A program made the position numbers and the translations under genes. Below are positions 30,333-41,619 of a stretch of 64,000 nt of DNA, in pieces; the stretch's first letter is position 1; every line of letters starts with the position of its first letter. The notes beneath the pieces were generated by a model, which was not told the DNA's origin, did not search any database, and saw only the letters and a program-made list of their open reading frames with translations. Origin of the DNA: Betaproteobacteria bacterium GR16-43 (GTDB taxonomy: Bacteria; Pseudomonadota; Gammaproteobacteria; Burkholderiales; Usitatibacteraceae). The DNA lies in NCBI GenBank assembly GCA_001953215.1, contig CP019169.1, positions 806,001 through 870,000 of the forward strand, in the 5' to 3' direction.

Positions 30333-30618
30333 AATTGGGGTCAGACTCCCATTCACCTAATTCAGACTGCGATTGCGTTTACGGCTCGCGGCGCCACCAG
30401 GAATGCCCTGGAGCGCCTTGAGCGACCGGCTGGGGATGATTCGATCTCCACGCAAATTCTTGACCTGGAGCGAATCGCCGCCCTGACATTGAAACGCCCA
30501 GCGCGAACTCGTGCTCGTCACATCCCTGCAATCGTTCCAGCTAGCTTGTGAGCGGCCGCAAGGACATGTTTGGGCACGGAGGCAAAAATTAACTTAATGG
30601 GAGTCTGACCCCAATTAT
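30331..30618. mobile_element. 288-bp element with 23-bp inverted ends, MITE-like
   Basis: The two ends, 30331-30353 and 30596-30618, are perfect 23-base inverted repeats starting ATAATTGGGGTCAGACT. The 242-base interior contains no convincing gene. The right end touches the marR stop codon and the left end overlaps the hydantoinase start codon, so the whole gap between the two genes is this element. Related ends occur at 41580-41619 and 55436-55453. Mobilisation in trans is inferred from structure only. Confidence 0.6.
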
Positions 30619-34004: not shown

Positions 34005-34042
34005 GAGTGACGTAGTTCACGCGTCGCGTCGCGCGCGGCCCG

Positions 34043-34048
34043 TATACT
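34043..34048 (+). promoter_or_regulatory. -10 element for the ECF sigma gene, leaderless arrangement
   Basis: TATACT lies six bases before the ATG at 34055, so a transcript starting at the usual distance would begin at or next to the start codon. There is no ribosome-binding site. No clear -35 is seen. Confidence 0.45.
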
Positions 34049-34054
34049 CGGGTC

Positions 34055-34618
34055 ATGGAGTCCGTGACGCAGTTGCTCTCCTCGATACGATCGGGGGAGC
34101 CGGATGCCGCCGCACGGCTCTACGCCGTCCTGTATCCCGAGATCAAGCGCCTGGCGCGCTCGCGCCTGTTCGAGGTGGGAGGCATTCCCAACCTCGGAAC
34201 GACCGCGCTCGTGAACGAGGGGTTCCTGCGCATCGCCGAACGCGAAGGGATCGAAGGCGCCACCCGCGAGCAGTTCTTCGCCTACACCGGCAAGGTGTTG
34301 CGCTCGGTCGTGCTCGACTGGCTGCGCGCCCGCGACGCGGAGAAGCGAGGCGGCGGCGCGGTGCACGTCACGCTCTCCGGCGCCGACGACGTGGCGCTGC
34401 CCGAAACGCCCGACGAATGGGCCGCCCTCGACGCGGCACTCGCCCGGCTCGAACGCATCGACCCGCCGCTCTACGCGCTCGTGGAGCTGCGGTATTTCGC
34501 CGGCTTTCGCATCGAGGAGATTGCCGCGATGCGCGGCGTCACCACGCGCACCATCGACCGCGACTGGGCCCGGGCCCGCGCGCTGCTCGAGGAGATGCTC
34601 GGTTCGACGCATGGATGA
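34055..34618 (+). CDS. ECF-type RNA polymerase sigma factor (TIGR02999-like)
   Basis: A 187-residue sigma factor. Region 2 includes RLYAVLYPEIKRLARSRL and EQFFAYTGKVLRSVVLDWLRARDAEKRGG; region 4 includes LVELRYFAGFRIEEIAAMRGVTTRTIDRDWARARALL. The pattern fits the TIGR02999 family, which often sits beside Ser/Thr kinases. The last 8 bases overlap the kinase gene, so the two are coupled. No anti-sigma factor is nearby; the kinase probably replaces it as the activity switch. Likely targets include the exported-protein genes just downstream. Confidence 0.92.
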   Translation: MESVTQLLSSIRSGEPDAAARLYAVLYPEIKRLARSRLFEVGGIPNLGTTALVNEGFLRIAEREGIEGATREQFFAYTGKVLRSVVLDWLRARDAEKRGGGAVHVTLSGADDVALPETPDEWAALDAALARLERIDPPLYALVELRYFAGFRIEEIAAMRGVTTRTIDRDWARARALLEEMLGSTHG

Positions 34619-37595
34619 TGCACAGCTTCGCCGCCGTTCCGCGCTGATCTCCGAGGCGCTCGAGCGCGACCCCGCCACGCTCGACGGCTGGCTCGCCGCG
34701 CTGCCCGCCGAGGACGCGAAGGCCGTTCGCCGCGCCCTCGCCCTGCAGTCGCAACCCGAAGCCGGCGGCCTGGGTGGCGTGAGCGCCGACCGTTTCGTTC
34801 ACCTCCTCGCGGCCGCCGTCGATCGCGACGCCACTCCCGCCGCGCACGCGCGGGACCGCTTCGGCGCCTGGTCGCTCACCCACAAGCTGGGCGAGGGCGG
34901 CATGGGCGAAGTGTGGAAGGCCGAGCGCGCCGACGGCCTCTACCAGGGTGCGGCCGCGATCAAGCTGTTGCGCGCCGACGTCGATCGAAACGTGCTGGCC
35001 CGCCGCTTCGCGCGCGAACGCGAAGTGCTCGCGCGCCTGGACCACCCGAACATCGCGCGCCTGCTCGACGCGGGGCTCGCCGACACCCATCCGTTCATCG
35101 TGCTGGAGTACGTCGAGGGACGCACGCTGCTCGATCACGCCGCGCAGCGAAAACTCTCCACGCGCGCGCGGGTGGCGCTGGTGCGGAAGGTCGCCGAAGC
35201 GGTGGCGCACGCGCATGGGCGCCTGGTCGTGCATCGGGATCTCAAGCCCCACAACATCCTCGTCACCGAAGCGGGCATGCCGAAGGTCCTCGACTTCGGC
35301 ATCGCCGCGCTGCTCGACGACGAGGGCCAGGCCGGCGACGGGCTCACGCGCGCGACCGGCCGCGCCCTCACGCTCGAGTACAGCGCGCCCGAGCAGGTCG
35401 CGGGCCTTCCCACCGATGTCCGTGCCGACGTCTACTCCCTCGGCGTCGTGCTCTACGAATTGCTCGCCGGCTCGCGCCCGCACGAGGCGAAGGACGGCAC
35501 GCGCCGGGCGATGGAATACGCGATCGTCCACGACGAAGCCCGGTCGCTGGACGCGAAGCGATTCGATGCCAGCCTCGTCGCCGTGGTCGCGCGGGCGTTG
35601 GCGCGCGAGCCGGAGCGCCGCTATCCGACCATGGCTGCGTTCGCCGACGACCTCGCGCGCTGGCTCGACGCGCGGCCCGTGTCCGCAACCACACCCACCG
35701 CGCTCCAACGCCTGCTGCTCTGGTCGCGGCGCAATCGCGCGCTCTCGGCGGCCACTGCCGCAGCGCTGGTTGCGGTGGGCGTCGGTCTCGTCGTCGCGAT
35801 CTGGCTCGCCGAGCAGGCACGCGGGCAGGAACGCGTGGCCGTCGCCGCGCTCGCCGATGCCCAACAGCAGGCGCTGCGCGCCAAGGTGGCGCTCGCTCGA
35901 GCGGAGAGCGAGTCGTCGCGCGCCGAGCGCGAGGCGGCGAATGCGCAGCAGCAAGCCGCGATTGCCACCACCGAGAGCGAGAACGCGAAACGCGGCGAAG
36001 CCAAGGCGCTCGCGGCCGAGTCGGCCTCCCGGCGCGACAAGGCGCAGGCCGAGAGCGAAGCGGGCAAGGCGAAGGCGGTCAGCGCATTCCTCGTCGACAT
36101 CTTCCAGGCCGCCGATCCGGAGAAGGCCAAGGGCGAGAAGCTCACGGCCCGTGACGTGGTCGATGCCGCCACGACGGAGCTCGACAAGCGCTTCGCCACG
36201 CAACCCGACACGCGCGCGGAGTTGCAGCGCACGCTCGGCACGACGTACACGTCGCTCCAGCGTCCGGACAAGGCCCTGCCGCTGCTCCTCGCCGCGGCGG
36301 AAGCGGAGGAAGCGAAATCCGGCAAGAGCTCGCTGTCGCGCGCGCGCATCCTGCTGTCGCTGGCACTCGCCGAGTCCGATGCGGAGAAATTCGTGGACGC
36401 CGTCGCGCACTACCGCGAGGCGCTTCCGATCGTCGAAGCGGCCGACGGGCCGGTGTCCGAGCCGGTCGCGATCGGCAAGGTCAACCTCACGTTCGCGCAA
36501 TGCAAGGTGGAGCCGAACGAAGCGTGCCTCGCGATCGCCGAGAAGCTGGCGGAGGACGTGCGCTCGAGGCTGGGCGACACGCACTGGCTCTACGTCGAAG
36601 CGCAGAATGGCCGCGCCACCGGGCTCAGCGTGATCGGGCGCTGGCGCGAGGTGCCCGGCGTGCTGCGCCCGCTGGAGCCGCTCCTGCTGGTGCCGCCGCC
36701 GGGCAAGGTCGTCTCGGCGCTCACCATTCGCGGCAACCTCGCGATCAGCATCTACCGCAGCGGCGATCTCGTGGGCGCCGCGACGCGCCTCGGACCGCTC
36801 ACGGAAGATCTCGAGAAGGTCCTCGGCCCCGAGGCCAACCAGACCCTGGTTCACCGCTGGTACCTGGCGGAGTTCCAACGCCAGCGCGGCGAGTATCGCG
36901 ATTGCCAGGCGCAGAACGCCCGGCTGGTGGAGATCCGCTCGCGCACCTCCGGACCGGAGCATGCGCTCACCATCGACGTTCTCTCCAAGGCGGCCATCTG
37001 CGCGCGCGCGGCCAATGACGCAGCCGCGGCGAAGGGTTATTTCGATCGCGCGATCGCGGCGCTGCCCGAGAAGGATGTCCCGCCGCAGCGCTCCGTCCTG
37101 CGCGCGCTGGTGGGCCTGGCAAACGTCGCGATCGATGCGGGCGACCTGCCCAAAGCGACGGCACTCCTCGATCGCTCGATGGCGCTCGTCACCGCGCTCA
37201 AGCTCGAGAGCGGCGACGAGTGGCTCATGCTTTCCGCCCTTCGCGCCACGGTTCGCAGCGCCACCGACGCGACCGGCGCGGCGACGCAGCTCTCGGCCGA
37301 CTTCGCCACGCCCACCGGGGCGCGCACCGCGGGCAGCCATGCCCTGAGGGGAATCTTCGCCTATCTCCTCGCGCTGTCCGGCCAACCGGACCGCGCGCGC
37401 GAGGAAAGCGCCGCGGCCCGCAAGCTCGCCGCCGCCCGCATCCCGGCCACCCACCCTTACTTCGCCGTGCTCGACTACGTCGACGCCATCGCGAGCGGCG
37501 ATCCGGCGAAGAAAGCGGCCGCGCTCGCGGCGCTGGAGAAGGCCATCCATCGTCCGGCTACGCTCCCGCTCGCGCCGCTCTGGTTCACGCTCTGA
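34611..37595 (+). CDS. Membrane Ser/Thr protein kinase with C-terminal TPR-like region
   Basis: A 994-residue protein. The N-terminal kinase (about 86-370) has GEGGMGEV, Lys118 in AAIKLL, HRDLKPHN (Asp210), DFG (Asp228) and SAPEQ, so it looks active. One membrane helix follows (about 378-402), then an alanine/glutamate-rich coiled coil (about 403-495), then a helical-repeat region resembling TPRs to the end. With the kinase inside, the repeats would be periplasmic. The start at 34611 overlaps the sigma gene by 8 bases. It probably senses an envelope signal and modulates the sigma factor; that link is inference from gene order and known ECF-kinase pairs. Confidence 0.92.
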   Translation: MDDAQLRRRSALISEALERDPATLDGWLAALPAEDAKAVRRALALQSQPEAGGLGGVSADRFVHLLAAAVDRDATPAAHARDRFGAWSLTHKLGEGGMGEVWKAERADGLYQGAAAIKLLRADVDRNVLARRFAREREVLARLDHPNIARLLDAGLADTHPFIVLEYVEGRTLLDHAAQRKLSTRARVALVRKVAEAVAHAHGRLVVHRDLKPHNILVTEAGMPKVLDFGIAALLDDEGQAGDGLTRATGRALTLEYSAPEQVAGLPTDVRADVYSLGVVLYELLAGSRPHEAKDGTRRAMEYAIVHDEARSLDAKRFDASLVAVVARALAREPERRYPTMAAFADDLARWLDARPVSATTPTALQRLLLWSRRNRALSAATAAALVAVGVGLVVAIWLAEQARGQERVAVAALADAQQQALRAKVALARAESESSRAEREAANAQQQAAIATTESENAKRGEAKALAAESASRRDKAQAESEAGKAKAVSAFLVDIFQAADPEKAKGEKLTARDVVDAATTELDKRFATQPDTRAELQRTLGTTYTSLQRPDKALPLLLAAAEAEEAKSGKSSLSRARILLSLALAESDAEKFVDAVAHYREALPIVEAADGPVSEPVAIGKVNLTFAQCKVEPNEACLAIAEKLAEDVRSRLGDTHWLYVEAQNGRATGLSVIGRWREVPGVLRPLEPLLLVPPPGKVVSALTIRGNLAISIYRSGDLVGAATRLGPLTEDLEKVLGPEANQTLVHRWYLAEFQRQRGEYRDCQAQNARLVEIRSRTSGPEHALTIDVLSKAAICARAANDAAAAKGYFDRAIAALPEKDVPPQRSVLRALVGLANVAIDAGDLPKATALLDRSMALVTALKLESGDEWLMLSALRATVRSATDATGAATQLSADFATPTGARTAGSHALRGIFAYLLALSGQPDRAREESAAARKLAAARIPATHPYFAVLDYVDAIASGDPAKKAAALAALEKAIHRPATLPLAPLWFTL

Positions 37596-37639
37596 TGTCG
37601 TAAAACGCGACGCGTCCGCGTCTGCTTCCGTGTAGACCC
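37594..37639 (+). promoter_or_regulatory. Promoter-like block shared with 38124-38169, copy 1
   Basis: Starts at the kinase stop codon. The segment GATGTCG, 18 bases, then CGTCTG is shared with the second copy, and the nine-base core CCGCGTCTG (37616-37624) is identical. The spacing fits an ECF-type -35/-10 pair. It lies in front of the exported-protein gene at 37648. Confidence 0.4.
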
Positions 37640-37647
37640 AAACGGGA

Positions 37648-38121
37648 GTGGCCTTGGTTCGCGTTGCATCGTTCCTGTTGTTCTTCATCGCGCCGTCCGC
37701 CCTCGCCGCGTCCATCGACTTCGGCGGCTTCGCGTTCGACCGCCTCCCGTACGAAGCCTTCGCCCGCGCCACCGGCATGACTTGCCATGCGCACGCCACC
37801 TCCTCGACTTGCTCCGGCGCGATCGAAATCGAAGGCATGAAAGTCCCCGGCGTCGCGTTGTGGCGCAAGACCCGCCGCGGCGAGATGGTGCTCGCCCAGG
37901 GCACGGCCGAGCTTCGCTGCGACACCGCGGGCGTCCAGCGCCTCGTGAAGGCCGGCACCGCGAAGTGGGGCAAGCCGGCCGCGCACGTACTGCCGGGCCG
38001 GAAGACCCTCTGGACCTGGCGCGACGCCGCGGCCAACCGCGCCACCTTCAGCGACGCGCCCGACGCCGGACGCGCCACCTGCACCTTGCTGGTCGAGGAC
38101 GGCCGCTGGGCCCGCGAATAG
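37648..38121 (+). CDS. Exported protein of unknown function
   Basis: A 157-residue protein with a signal peptide ending near APSALAAS and three later cysteines (in MTCHAH, SSTCSGA and ELRCDT) plus one near the end (ATCTLL). No family is recognised. The start is either GTG 37648 or TTG 37654; a GGGAG at 37644-37648 is spaced better for the TTG. It follows the kinase gene after a 52-base gap that carries the promoter-like block, so it may be a direct target of the ECF sigma factor. Confidence 0.65.
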   Translation: MALVRVASFLLFFIAPSALAASIDFGGFAFDRLPYEAFARATGMTCHAHATSSTCSGAIEIEGMKVPGVALWRKTRRGEMVLAQGTAELRCDTAGVQRLVKAGTAKWGKPAAHVLPGRKTLWTWRDAAANRATFSDAPDAGRATCTLLVEDGRWARE

Positions 38122-38123
38122 GC

Positions 38124-38169
38124 GATGTCGCGTTTTGCCGCGGCGCCGCGTCTGTATCCCTGAACGCCC
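38124..38169 (+). promoter_or_regulatory. Promoter-like block shared with 37594-37639, copy 2
   Basis: Aligns to copy 1 without gaps at 29 of 46 positions, including GATGTCG (38124-38130), CCGCGTCTG (38146-38154) and TCC-n-TG-n-A. It lies between the exported-protein gene and the DUF3617-like gene and is followed by a run of nine T's. Confidence 0.4.
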
Positions 38170-38194
38170 CCTTTTTTTTCCTTGGAGAACCCGC

Positions 38195-38599
38195 ATGCGT
38201 CCGACCCGCCTCGCCCTCGCCGTTGCCGCCCTTTGCCTCGCCACCGCCGCCCACGCCGACCCGAGCCGGCCCGGCAAGTACGACTACTCGGTGAAGGTGA
38301 ACGTGATGGGCATGGGCATGCCCGCCATCAACTTCTCGCAGTGCGTCACGAAGAAGGACATCGACGAGGGCAAGGCCTACGTGAACAAGGAACAGAAGGG
38401 CTGCACCTACTCGGACATGAAGCGCGACGGCGACCGCATCTCCTTCCGCATGGCGTGCAAGGACCCGGTGATGACGGGCGACGCGACCGGCACCATCGGC
38501 GCCGACGCCTTCACCATCGACATGCGCGCGATCGTCACCGAGCCCATGAAGATGGAGCAGCGCACGACCGTCAGCGCCAAGCGCACCGGGGATTGCTGA
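38195..38599 (+). CDS. DUF3617-like exported protein
   Basis: A 134-residue protein with a signal peptide (MRPTRLALAVAALCLATAAHA). The mature part reads RPGKYDYSVKVNVMGMGMP, FSQCVTKKDID, GCTYSDMKRDGDRISFRMAC and TMTG-like strands, the layout of DUF3617 domains. The role is unknown; the family is periplasmic. ATG at 38195 has TTGGAGAA upstream. The stop overlaps the next start as TGATG. Confidence 0.75.
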   Translation: MRPTRLALAVAALCLATAAHADPSRPGKYDYSVKVNVMGMGMPAINFSQCVTKKDIDEGKAYVNKEQKGCTYSDMKRDGDRISFRMACKDPVMTGDATGTIGADAFTIDMRAIVTEPMKMEQRTTVSAKRTGDC

Positions 38600-40800
38600 T
38601 GAAAGCGCCGCTTCGCGTCCTGGCGTTCTCGCTCGCGGCTTTCGCCACGATGGGCGCGCGCGCCGACGTCTTCAGCGACGCCTACCAGTGCGTGAAGGCC
38701 AACGCGAAGCTGGCGCTCGTCACCGCGGAAGTCGGTCCGGGTGCCGTGGAGTTCGTCGTGACCAAGCCGCAGTGCGTGGCGCTGGTGACGTCACCGGCGC
38801 CCGTGCCCACCGGCGTGATGGTCGGCACGCTCGGCCTCACCGCCACCGGCGTCCTGCCGAAGAAGAACCCGGGCTGCGAAGGCGCGCTCTACACCACCGC
38901 GGCGAAGCCCGTCGCGAGCATCCTCGACAAGCTGGGCATCCTGCCGGCGAGCGTCAACAAGCAGATCGCGAGCGGAGCCTCGAACGAGGCGATCGGCCAG
39001 GCGGTGCAGGCCATCCCGGGTTCGTCGATCGCGTTCGCGTCGTTCAGCTGCGGCTGCGGGCTCTCCAACGCGGGCCTCAATCCCGACACGGTGAAGGAAA
39101 TCTACAAGGCCACCCTCGCCGCGGGCAGCAAGTGCGCGGACGTGCTCGGCAACGCGATCGAAGGCGGCGCGAAAGCGATCGAGTCCGCCGCGAGCGCGGC
39201 CGGCGATGCGCTCTCGGGCCAGACGAAGCACATGGATCCGCAGAAGTACTACGCACTCTACTTCCGCCCGCGCCTGATGGCGGACTACGCCACGTTCCGC
39301 ACGCAGCCGCAGAACCTGCGTCCGTACCTCGAGACGGTCGAGCCCGTGCCGCAGTGCGAGCACTACTTCGACAAGCACACGATGTCGGAAGCGAACGCTT
39401 CGAAGACCTGCTACGCGCTGCGCGACCAGTACGTGGCGGAGTACGCGCAGAAGCAGCCGCAGATGGAAGAGACGCGGCAGATGACGGACCTGCGCACGTT
39501 CGGGTCCGAGACCCAGAGTGCCGGCCGGTTCCTGCTCAACAGCGACACGGGCCCCTATGGCAAGTACTGCGGCACCCGATTCAAGACGGAGCCCGGATAC
39601 ACCGTCGACAAGCGGGCGCGCGAAAACTTCCAGCTGGCCTGCATGACGACCGCGGGCCTGTACCTGGGCTACACCGTCAAGCACTACGAGTTCAAGTTCC
39701 CGAACTGGACCTACACGGTCAACCAGAACAGCCCGGATCGCTTCCAGAACCGCATGGCGGCCGCGGCCAACAATCCCGGCGGGCGCAAGGCGGCGGACAT
39801 TCGCAAGCAGGCCATCGACCAGCTCTTCGCGGAATTCGCGCCGCTCGCCGACAAGGCGTATCCGGCGTGGGTGTCCACGGTCGTGAAGGAGGAGAAGGAA
39901 GCCGATGCGAAGGGCATGAAGCAGGACGCCCTCAACAAGGACAAGGAAGCCAAGGACAAGGCCGCCAAGGAAGCGAAGGACAAGGCCGACGCGGCCAAGG
40001 GACTCGCCGAGGCGCAGGCCGGTTGCAAGGACGAGCACTGCAAGGCCGACGTGGTCTCCTATCTCGCGAATTGCAAGAGGACCGGCGGCACCGAGGGCGC
40101 TCAGTTGGAGTCCGGGCTCCAGTGCAACCTGAACCTCGGCGTGCTGCACGACGTCTCCGCACGGCGCGTGGCGATCGACGCGAAGTTCGACGGGCAGGTG
40201 AAGGGCCTGCTCTCGGTCGTCTGCCCGCCGGACAAGGATTGCTCGACCGGCGTTCACCGGCAGCGCGCGGAGATCCAGGCCGAGGAAGACAAGGTCTGGA
40301 AGTACGTGCTCGACAGTGCCAACGCGCGCGGCAACACGAAGAACGCCAAGGCGACGATCTACGCGGAGACGCTGAACCTGCTGAAGCCGATCGAGGCGAA
40401 GACCATCGTCGCCGCGACCGTGACGCGCAACTTCCAGGCGGTGCCGCCCACCGTGGCGAACGTCCCGCCGGCGGTGGCACCGCCGAAGCCGCCCGTCGTG
40501 GCCTACGCGCCTCCTGTCACGCCCACCACGCCGGTGAAACCCCCGACCTCGATTCCGCCCAAGGTTCCACCCGCGATCGTTCCGCCGCCGGCACCGCCGC
40601 CGTCCTTCCCCACGGGCGCGGGTTCGATCGGAAACAACCTTGCCGCGAACGGCAACGCCTCGCTCGTGAAGGACTGCGAACCGAAGAGCGCGGTGGAGAC
40701 GCAGCAACTCGTGTGCACGAACGACGCGGCGCTGAACCGCTGCCGTTCCCTCATCGCCAGCGGCAAGGTGCGCAGCTGCGTGGCCAAGTCCGGCCGCTGA
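38599..40800 (+). CDS. Large exported protein with Lys-rich and Pro-rich segments, unknown
   Basis: A 733-residue protein with a signal peptide ending near MGARAD. It has many paired cysteines (YQCVKAN, KPQCVAL, SCGCGLS, QCEHYF, KTCYALR), a lysine/alanine/glutamate-rich charged helix around residues 430-475, and a proline-rich linker around 615-670 before a Cys-containing C-terminus. No known domain is recognised. The start at 38599 overlaps the DUF3617 stop, so it is coupled. The CsgG-like gene follows 19 bases later with a similar leader. An extracellular or surface assembly role is a guess from context. Confidence 0.75.
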   Translation: MKAPLRVLAFSLAAFATMGARADVFSDAYQCVKANAKLALVTAEVGPGAVEFVVTKPQCVALVTSPAPVPTGVMVGTLGLTATGVLPKKNPGCEGALYTTAAKPVASILDKLGILPASVNKQIASGASNEAIGQAVQAIPGSSIAFASFSCGCGLSNAGLNPDTVKEIYKATLAAGSKCADVLGNAIEGGAKAIESAASAAGDALSGQTKHMDPQKYYALYFRPRLMADYATFRTQPQNLRPYLETVEPVPQCEHYFDKHTMSEANASKTCYALRDQYVAEYAQKQPQMEETRQMTDLRTFGSETQSAGRFLLNSDTGPYGKYCGTRFKTEPGYTVDKRARENFQLACMTTAGLYLGYTVKHYEFKFPNWTYTVNQNSPDRFQNRMAAAANNPGGRKAADIRKQAIDQLFAEFAPLADKAYPAWVSTVVKEEKEADAKGMKQDALNKDKEAKDKAAKEAKDKADAAKGLAEAQAGCKDEHCKADVVSYLANCKRTGGTEGAQLESGLQCNLNLGVLHDVSARRVAIDAKFDGQVKGLLSVVCPPDKDCSTGVHRQRAEIQAEEDKVWKYVLDSANARGNTKNAKATIYAETLNLLKPIEAKTIVAATVTRNFQAVPPTVANVPPAVAPPKPPVVAYAPPVTPTTPVKPPTSIPPKVPPAIVPPPAPPPSFPTGAGSIGNNLAANGNASLVKDCEPKSAVETQQLVCTNDAALNRCRSLIASGKVRSCVAKSGR

Positions 40801-40819
40801 ACCTCGAATGGAGAACCCC

Positions 40820-41548
40820 ATGAAGACACTGATCCTCGTTTCCCTCGTCGCCGTGGCCCTGGCTCCCGCGGCGCACGCCGCCGATGCGAAGGTGGACCGC
40901 TCGAAGGGCACGCAGAAGCTGCAGGACATGGGCAAGGCCGCGACCCGGCCCTATGTCACGGTCTACGAAGTGAAGTCCAACGTGAGCGAGATCGACGCGC
41001 GTGGCACGACCGCGATGTTCACCACCGCGCTCATCAAGAGCCGGCAGTTCCGCGTGGTCGAGCGCAATCGCCTCGCCGAGGGCGTGGGGCGCGAACGCGA
41101 AATGAACGCGAGCGGCGTCACGAGCGGCGAAGGCGCCACGAAGCAGTTGAAGGGCGCGGGATTCGTCTTCGAGGCGTCGATCACGGAACTCGCCACGCAG
41201 GTGAAGTCGTCCTCGAGCGGCTTCTCCATCGGCGGCATGCAGGTCGGCCAGTCGGCGGGGCAGGATGAGCTGGGCATGGACATCCGCGTGCTCAACGTGC
41301 AGACGGGTGAAGTGCTGGACGCCATCAACGTGCGCAAGAAACTCGATTCATCCGGCTCGAGCGTGAATGGCGTGGGCTCCTTGCTGGACACGATCGCCAG
41401 CCGCCGCGGCATCAACACCGGCGGCCTCACGCCCGACGTGAACGCGCAGAACTCCAAGCGCGAATCGCTCGACCGGGCGCTGCGCGAGCTGATCGAGCTG
41501 GCCGTGCTCGAGCTCGCTTCGCGCCAGAAGGAGTGGGAGCTCGATTAG
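40820..41548 (+). CDS. CsgG family exported protein
   Basis: A 242-residue protein with a signal peptide ending near APAAHAAD. The CsgG-type segment includes TTAMFTTALIKSRQFRVVERNRL, GAGFVFEASITELA and LGMDIRVLNVQTGEVLDAINVRKK. CsgG forms the curli secretion pore in Enterobacteria; many relatives are periplasmic or outer-membrane-associated components of other systems. No lipobox cysteine is seen, which differs from CsgG itself. ATG at 40820 follows GGAGA. It is the last gene of the ECF-kinase-exported-protein run, followed by an inverted repeat. Confidence 0.85.
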   Translation: MKTLILVSLVAVALAPAAHAADAKVDRSKGTQKLQDMGKAATRPYVTVYEVKSNVSEIDARGTTAMFTTALIKSRQFRVVERNRLAEGVGREREMNASGVTSGEGATKQLKGAGFVFEASITELATQVKSSSSGFSIGGMQVGQSAGQDELGMDIRVLNVQTGEVLDAINVRKKLDSSGSSVNGVGSLLDTIASRRGINTGGLTPDVNAQNSKRESLDRALRELIELAVLELASRQKEWELD

Positions 41549-41579: not shown

Positions 41580-41619
41580 GGGGTCAGACCCCAATTGGGG
41601 ATAATTGGGGTCTGACCCC
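41580..41619. repeat. Inverted repeat related to the 30331-30618 element ends
   Basis: Perfect 17-base arms at 41580-41596 and 41603-41619 (GGGGTCAGACCCCAATT and its complement) with a six-base centre. It may be a collapsed copy of the element at 30331-30618, whose ends also read AATTGGGGTC. It lies between the CsgG and NRDE genes and could act as a terminator, but no T tract follows. Confidence 0.7.

Follow-up and report, generated by a model that had tools for sequence, protein, structure and literature searches.

The window, a 64,000-nucleotide stretch of the complete 4.81-Mb genome of Betaproteobacteria bacterium GR16-43, harbored a module of six genes that the first-pass annotation had placed correctly (Table 1), including an overlap of exactly 8 bases between the sigma-factor gene and the kinase gene. 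Four exported genes, as stated there, followed downstream on the same strand, in agreement with the coordinates and with a signal-peptide-like stretch (judged by eye) that opened each of the four post-kinase proteins; the reported absence of an anti-sigma factor likewise held, Pfam and NCBIfam detecting no anti-sigma domain in any of the six genes. Among the points to be corrected, the 134-aa protein belonged to a recognised family, DUF3617.

Table 1. Genes and promoter-like elements of the module in the window
Feature	Coordinates	Strand	Remarks
Sigma factor, ECF43-type, 187 aa	34055..34618	+	TIGR02999, Pfam Sigma70_ECF
Hanks-type Ser/Thr kinase, 994 aa, ATG start	34611..37595	+	Pfam Pkinase (E 5e-46), TPR_12
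Promoter-like element 1, TGTC-N20-GTCT	37596..37623	+	Immediately 3' of the kinase stop codon
Small exported protein, 157 aa	37648..38121	+	No Pfam or NCBIfam match
Promoter-like element 2, TGTC-N20-GTCT	38126..38153	+	Shared intergenic pattern
Exported DUF3617 protein, 134 aa	38195..38599	+	Pfam DUF3617 (E 4.9e-18)
Large Cys-rich exported protein, 733 aa	38599..40800	+	Family with members from all six modules and G121
CsgG-like exported protein, 246 aa	40808..41548	+	Pfam CsgG (E 2.5e-25)

A sigma-70 promoter scan across the module region gave no match. TATACT lay immediately 5' of the sigma ATG (34042–34057) and at the same position in G220 (locus L059), another genome of the family, and this position in the window and G220 suggests that the sigma transcript may be leaderless and issue from a housekeeping promoter. 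A REP-like palindrome, GGGGTCAGACCCC, and its variants occurred at 41580–41619 and 30337–30612 (six matches in the window vs 0.07 expected), and REP-like elements of a similar kind were seen upstream of the sigma gene in G220.

The sigma factor matched TIGR02999 with 151 bits (cut-off 126) and Pfam Sigma70_ECF with E 6e-39; its region 2.2 carried GTTA in place of acidic residues, the corresponding motif being NTTA or NTTG in the sigma factors of five further modules (see below), with the threonine kept in all six. In the kinase, the HRD and DFG motifs were intact; a single transmembrane helix covered about residues 382–400, and a TPR region at the C terminus was predicted to be periplasmic. 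Published ECF43 sigma factors lack DAED in region 2.2 and have a threonine motif there (STTA in EcfP, QTTA as consensus), which is phosphorylated by the kinase encoded alongside (PMC8999054, PMC13147305). The pair in the window shared the TIGR02999/Sigma70_ECF family, the adjacent gene for a Hanks-type kinase of PknS-like layout, the lack of an anti-sigma gene, and an uncharged region 2.2 motif with conserved threonine replacing DAED, and the sigma–kinase half of the module was therefore of a known kind. From the region 2.2 signature and the analogy with EcfP/PknT and EcfK/PknS, we infer that the kinase would phosphorylate the sigma factor.

The comparison with these two published ECF43 pairs revealed likenesses in the signalling half and differences in the output: (i) EcfP–PknT of Vibrio parahaemolyticus likewise had no anti-sigma factor, an adjoining Hanks-type kinase, and replaced acidic residues in region 2.2 (STTA vs GTTA here, the threonine being common to both), but its regulon led to polymyxin resistance, in contrast to the CsgG-like, DUF3617, and Cys-rich outputs here (PMC8999054); and (ii) EcfK–PknS of Xanthomonas citri, in which EcfK was the substrate of the PknS encoded alongside, had a kinase that crosses the membrane, its N-terminal part comprising a cytoplasmic domain and a segment ahead of it and its C-terminal part periplasmic TPRs, a layout resembling that of the kinase here, but the EcfK motif QATE retained charge whereas GTTA was uncharged, the main phosphosite there was T106 in the linker, and the output was a type VI secretion system, unlike here (PMC13147305). 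No module of CsgG-like, DUF3617, and Cys-rich proteins was described in this ECF43 literature.

The gene-neighbourhood comparison was applied to 28 genomes of the family. Sigma orthologues (63–78% identity) and CsgG-like orthologues (59–81%) were found in the same 4 of the 28 (the window genome, G220, G250, and G308) and were both absent from the same 24 (hypergeometric 5e-5, kinship ignored); the remaining ECF43 sigma factors of the family had about 46% identity or less to the module sigma factor. All four modules had their genes on one strand, with sigma to CsgG-like within about 12 kb, and displayed the order sigma, kinase, exported gene(s), the DUF3617 and CsgG-like genes coming late in the series; the large-protein gene lay 5' of DUF3617 in G250 and G308, and in the window and G220 it separated DUF3617 from CsgG-like. 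A profile scan with the CsgG alignment over 84,980 species added two MAGs labelled Rhodoferax (L097 and L098), in which the genes for sigma, kinase, large Cys-rich, DUF3617, and CsgG-like proteins were rearranged over both strands. The six module sigma factors formed one clade (support 100/100). The genes accordingly recurred as one conserved module in six bacteria, as the first-pass annotation had supposed, this being a small and related sample in which four of the six modules came from metagenome bins, some of one sampling series, and in which the bins of G250 (= L096), L097, and L098 carried related names for their samples, with errors of binning possibly common to them.

Close orthologues of the exported genes were never found in the family without the sigma/kinase pair, but this did not extend to distant homologues: (i) G121 (L062 9760–19126) contained a 1128-aa distant homologue of the 733-aa protein, then exported genes (one of them FecR-domain-like by eye) and OmpA/DUF4892, with no sigma/kinase pair nearby; and (ii) CsgG-like homologues in G335 and G403 lay near a BTAD/AAA_16/TPR regulator and away from any sigma/kinase pair. 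These distant output homologues were found alongside other regulators, and the exported parts thus appear to be older or more mobile than the circuit. CsgG-like homologues near BTAD, AAA_16, and TPR were seen at L122 9131–12895 and L119 6289–12702, as if the regulator had been swapped. In G264 (L121 9526–15822), sigma and kinase genes were followed in turn by genes for an exported protein of 525 aa and for a distant CsgG-like copy with a lipobox-like LLSAC. This locus, which had no DUF3617, was rejected as a member of the module (sigma outside the clade, no promoter element) and may represent an ECF43 module in parallel.

GATGTCG-N16-CGCGTCTG was common to the two intergenic gaps in the window; TGTCG-N15–17-CGCGTCTG occurred six times genome-wide, and the 16-base gap was present only in the two window sites. 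The pattern TGTCG-N18-CGTCT recurred in G220, G250, G308, L097, and L098, the gap between TGTC and GTCT always being 20 bases. At this spacing, 17 TGTC-Ns-GTCT sites were counted in the 62.4 kb of DNA of the six modules, compared with 1 site in 265 kb of control DNA (0.63 expected from the control; P about 6e-19) and with never more than 4 in module DNA at other spacings from 8 to 32. The pattern had been suggested by the window sites, so the fair test lay in the other five modules, which contained 15 sites (P about 7e-17). Positions left free in the search were also conserved (G5, C24, Y6, and R7, each at 18 of 18 sites), and the flanks and spacers of the copies were unrelated. The strict pattern was found 10 times in the four family modules (0.014 expected), and its 29 matches in the 24 module-free genomes (0.36 per Mb) were at about control level. 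A search allowing up to two mismatches returned the module sites and one site in G250 (see below), the remainder being about as frequent as matches to the reversed-pattern control, and a search with spacing off by one, an unplanned control, returned no module site; a single two-mismatch match near another sigma gene was taken as chance.

Across the six modules, the element stood 5' of same-strand genes and at most transcription units: it preceded the gene next to the kinase on its 3' side, the DUF3617 gene, and, where this was separate, the CsgG-like gene, and additionally the large-protein and kinase genes in L098 and the sigma gene in G308. Because gene order varied between modules, the element went with transcription units instead of any one fixed piece of DNA. 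It was absent at the sigma–kinase pair in the window and G220, so autoregulation is probably absent there. The predicted tie of the exported genes to the module sigma factor is well supported by this shared element; together with the co-occurrence, it upholds as a prediction the part of the first-pass proposal in which the sigma factor drives the exported genes, but not the part that names CsgG-type secretion as the output (see below).

Two of the strict sites that fell outside modules were individually inspected, one on contig 3 of G250 and one on contig 330 of G308, and only the former was convincing; the latter lay inside a gene, antisense, and was rejected. The G250 site was located some tens of bases 5' of an exported-protein gene, the product of which had 59% identity to the OmpA/DUF4892 protein encoded within the L097 and L098 modules; no equally close full-length homologue was found in the other family genomes. 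The link between the element and OmpA/DUF4892 had not been used in building the pattern and thus gave independent support.

To our knowledge, the output gene set beside this ECF43 pair is not that of any known system. The 733-aa protein, rightly noted from the start as unrecognised and Cys-rich, contained 20 Cys (2.7%) and had no Pfam or NCBIfam family, a weak, sub-cut-off TolA-like match covering a Lys/Ala-rich stretch. Its reading frame was open 5' as far as 38182, and the start was chosen by an overlap of one base with the stop codon of DUF3617 and by the copy in G220, to which it had 77% identity; it was weakly similar to its counterparts in the other modules. All-against-all comparison placed the large proteins of the six modules and the G121 protein in one family, the module members having 717–855 aa, 19–25 Cys, and a Pro-, Ser-, or Gly-rich linker (Pro-rich in the 733-aa protein), plus a conserved Cys-rich C-terminal tail. 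The tail alignment contained three invariant Cys, and a fourth just upstream was aligned in the full-length alignment; in the structure model of the 733-aa protein (mean pLDDT 43), the tail was the sole stretch above pLDDT 70 and was modelled as a small strand-strand-helix-strand unit. The 733-aa protein founds a family that was previously undescribed and evolves fast, with the Cys-rich tail conserved. Matches to it in G240, G172, and G184 were set aside as probably compositional, their gene surroundings being unrelated. DUF3617 genes were present in the other modules too, and a literature search for DUF3617 returned no match. The 157-aa protein had 81% identity in G220 and was found only in the genus of the window; its gene starts with GTG or TTG, giving about 155 aa.

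On gene content, co-occurrence, sigma orthology, the promoter element, and the regulon prediction, all of them read from sequence, the module probably constitutes one self-contained, dedicated ECF43 signalling circuit. We infer its phosphorylation step, direction of control, promoter activity, and envelope role as follows: the periplasmic TPR region of the kinase would sense an envelope or extracellular cue; the kinase would phosphorylate the sigma factor at the region 2.2 threonine (the second T of GTTA, by analogy), giving back the negative charge required for RNA polymerase binding; the active holoenzyme would initiate transcription at TGTCG-N18-CGTCT promoters, in the window one 5' of the 157-aa gene and one 5' of a DUF3617–733-aa–CsgG-like operon; and the exported products would most likely serve to assemble or stabilise a structure of the envelope or surface, mainly composed of the large, variable Cys-rich protein, to which the CsgG-like and DUF3617 proteins would be conserved accessories. 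The safest reading of the outputs is that they form a periplasmic or outer-membrane structure.

It is quite conceivable, if short of probable, that the regulon serves defence against envelope stress, the exported proteins being retained in the periplasm and strengthening the envelope against attack, whether by antimicrobial peptides, by predators, or of a similar kind. Known ECF43 regulons do so, that of EcfP with polymyxin and that of EcfK with amoeba (PMC8999054, PMC13147305), but no module gene was similar to a known resistance or type VI secretion gene. The OmpA/DUF4892 partner is consistent with such a defence, as is the CsgG-like protein, which matched LpoB (E 2e-7), the CsgG fold being common to LpoB-type periplasmic proteins. 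A doubtful reading is an undescribed envelope-assembly or secretion machine under a phosphorylation-switched sigma factor, in which the CsgG-like, DUF3617, and OmpA/DUF4892 proteins would handle large disulfide-rich exported proteins of the new family with the Cys-rich C-terminal tail.

It is unlikely that, given a real circuit, the output is a true CsgG-type outer-membrane channel that secretes the large Cys-rich protein to form an extracellular structure in the manner of curli. The CsgG domain, the match of the family profile to PDB CsgG chains (E 1e-11), the constant presence of a large exported protein with a conserved C-terminal tail near the CsgG-like gene, and an OmpA-family partner, which belongs to two modules and is a predicted target, outside the module, in one further genome, would all suit a channel; however, the profile match to solved CsgG stopped at residue 198 of 277, a point that we take to precede the second membrane hairpin, and the second hairpin region was not recognisable in the family profile. 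The CsgG channel of Escherichia coli, exported and with a CsgG domain as here, is a lipoprotein with CsgE, CsgF, and curlin partners, whereas neither the CsgG-like protein here nor any of its close orthologues showed a lipobox, and no curli partner (csgE, csgF, csgA, or csgB) was found among the proteins of the window module and the scanned proteins of the other modules. The structure model of the CsgG-like protein was too poor for fold judgement (mean pLDDT 52). On the missing lipobox, the missing curli partners in the module, and the poor models, the CsgG-linked secretion proposed in the first-pass annotation was not supported as the output.

The comparison was also applied to three further TIGR02999 sigma–kinase pairs of the window genome. 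In these, sigma adjoined kinase as here, and large exported proteins lay nearby in two, but the sigma factors had about 41% identity or less to the module sigma factor and fell into separate clades. Two of these ECF43 pairs (L010 4000–15743 and L011 8708–19318), outside the window, stood beside exported proteins that were very large or repeated, namely a Kelch/FG-GAP/reprolysin protein of 2716 aa and a tandem series of several proteins, each about 400 aa long, of which the single one scanned had an S74 endosialidase-chaperone domain; the ECF43 pairs of this genome may generally control surface-protein genes. Any of the three other pairs could share promoters with the module, and together with the REP-like repeats near it this might point to mere adjacency, the motif being a repeat or the site of another regulator and the sigma factor acting elsewhere, but such a coincidence is highly improbable in view of the element's spacing and same-strand upstream position in six genomes (rearranged ones included), its unrelated flanks and spacers, and the lack of intergenic TGTCG-N18-CGTCT sites around the other three pairs.

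The known outputs in the cited ECF43 literature are those of two circuits, EcfP–PknT and EcfK–PknS. With the dedicated circuit proposed here, one ECF43 group gains a promoter (TGTCG-N18-CGTCT) and a regulon, both predicted, and the step from kinase to promoter becomes directly testable; DUF3617, the lipobox-less CsgG-like family, and the new Cys-rich exported family would each gain a first functional setting.
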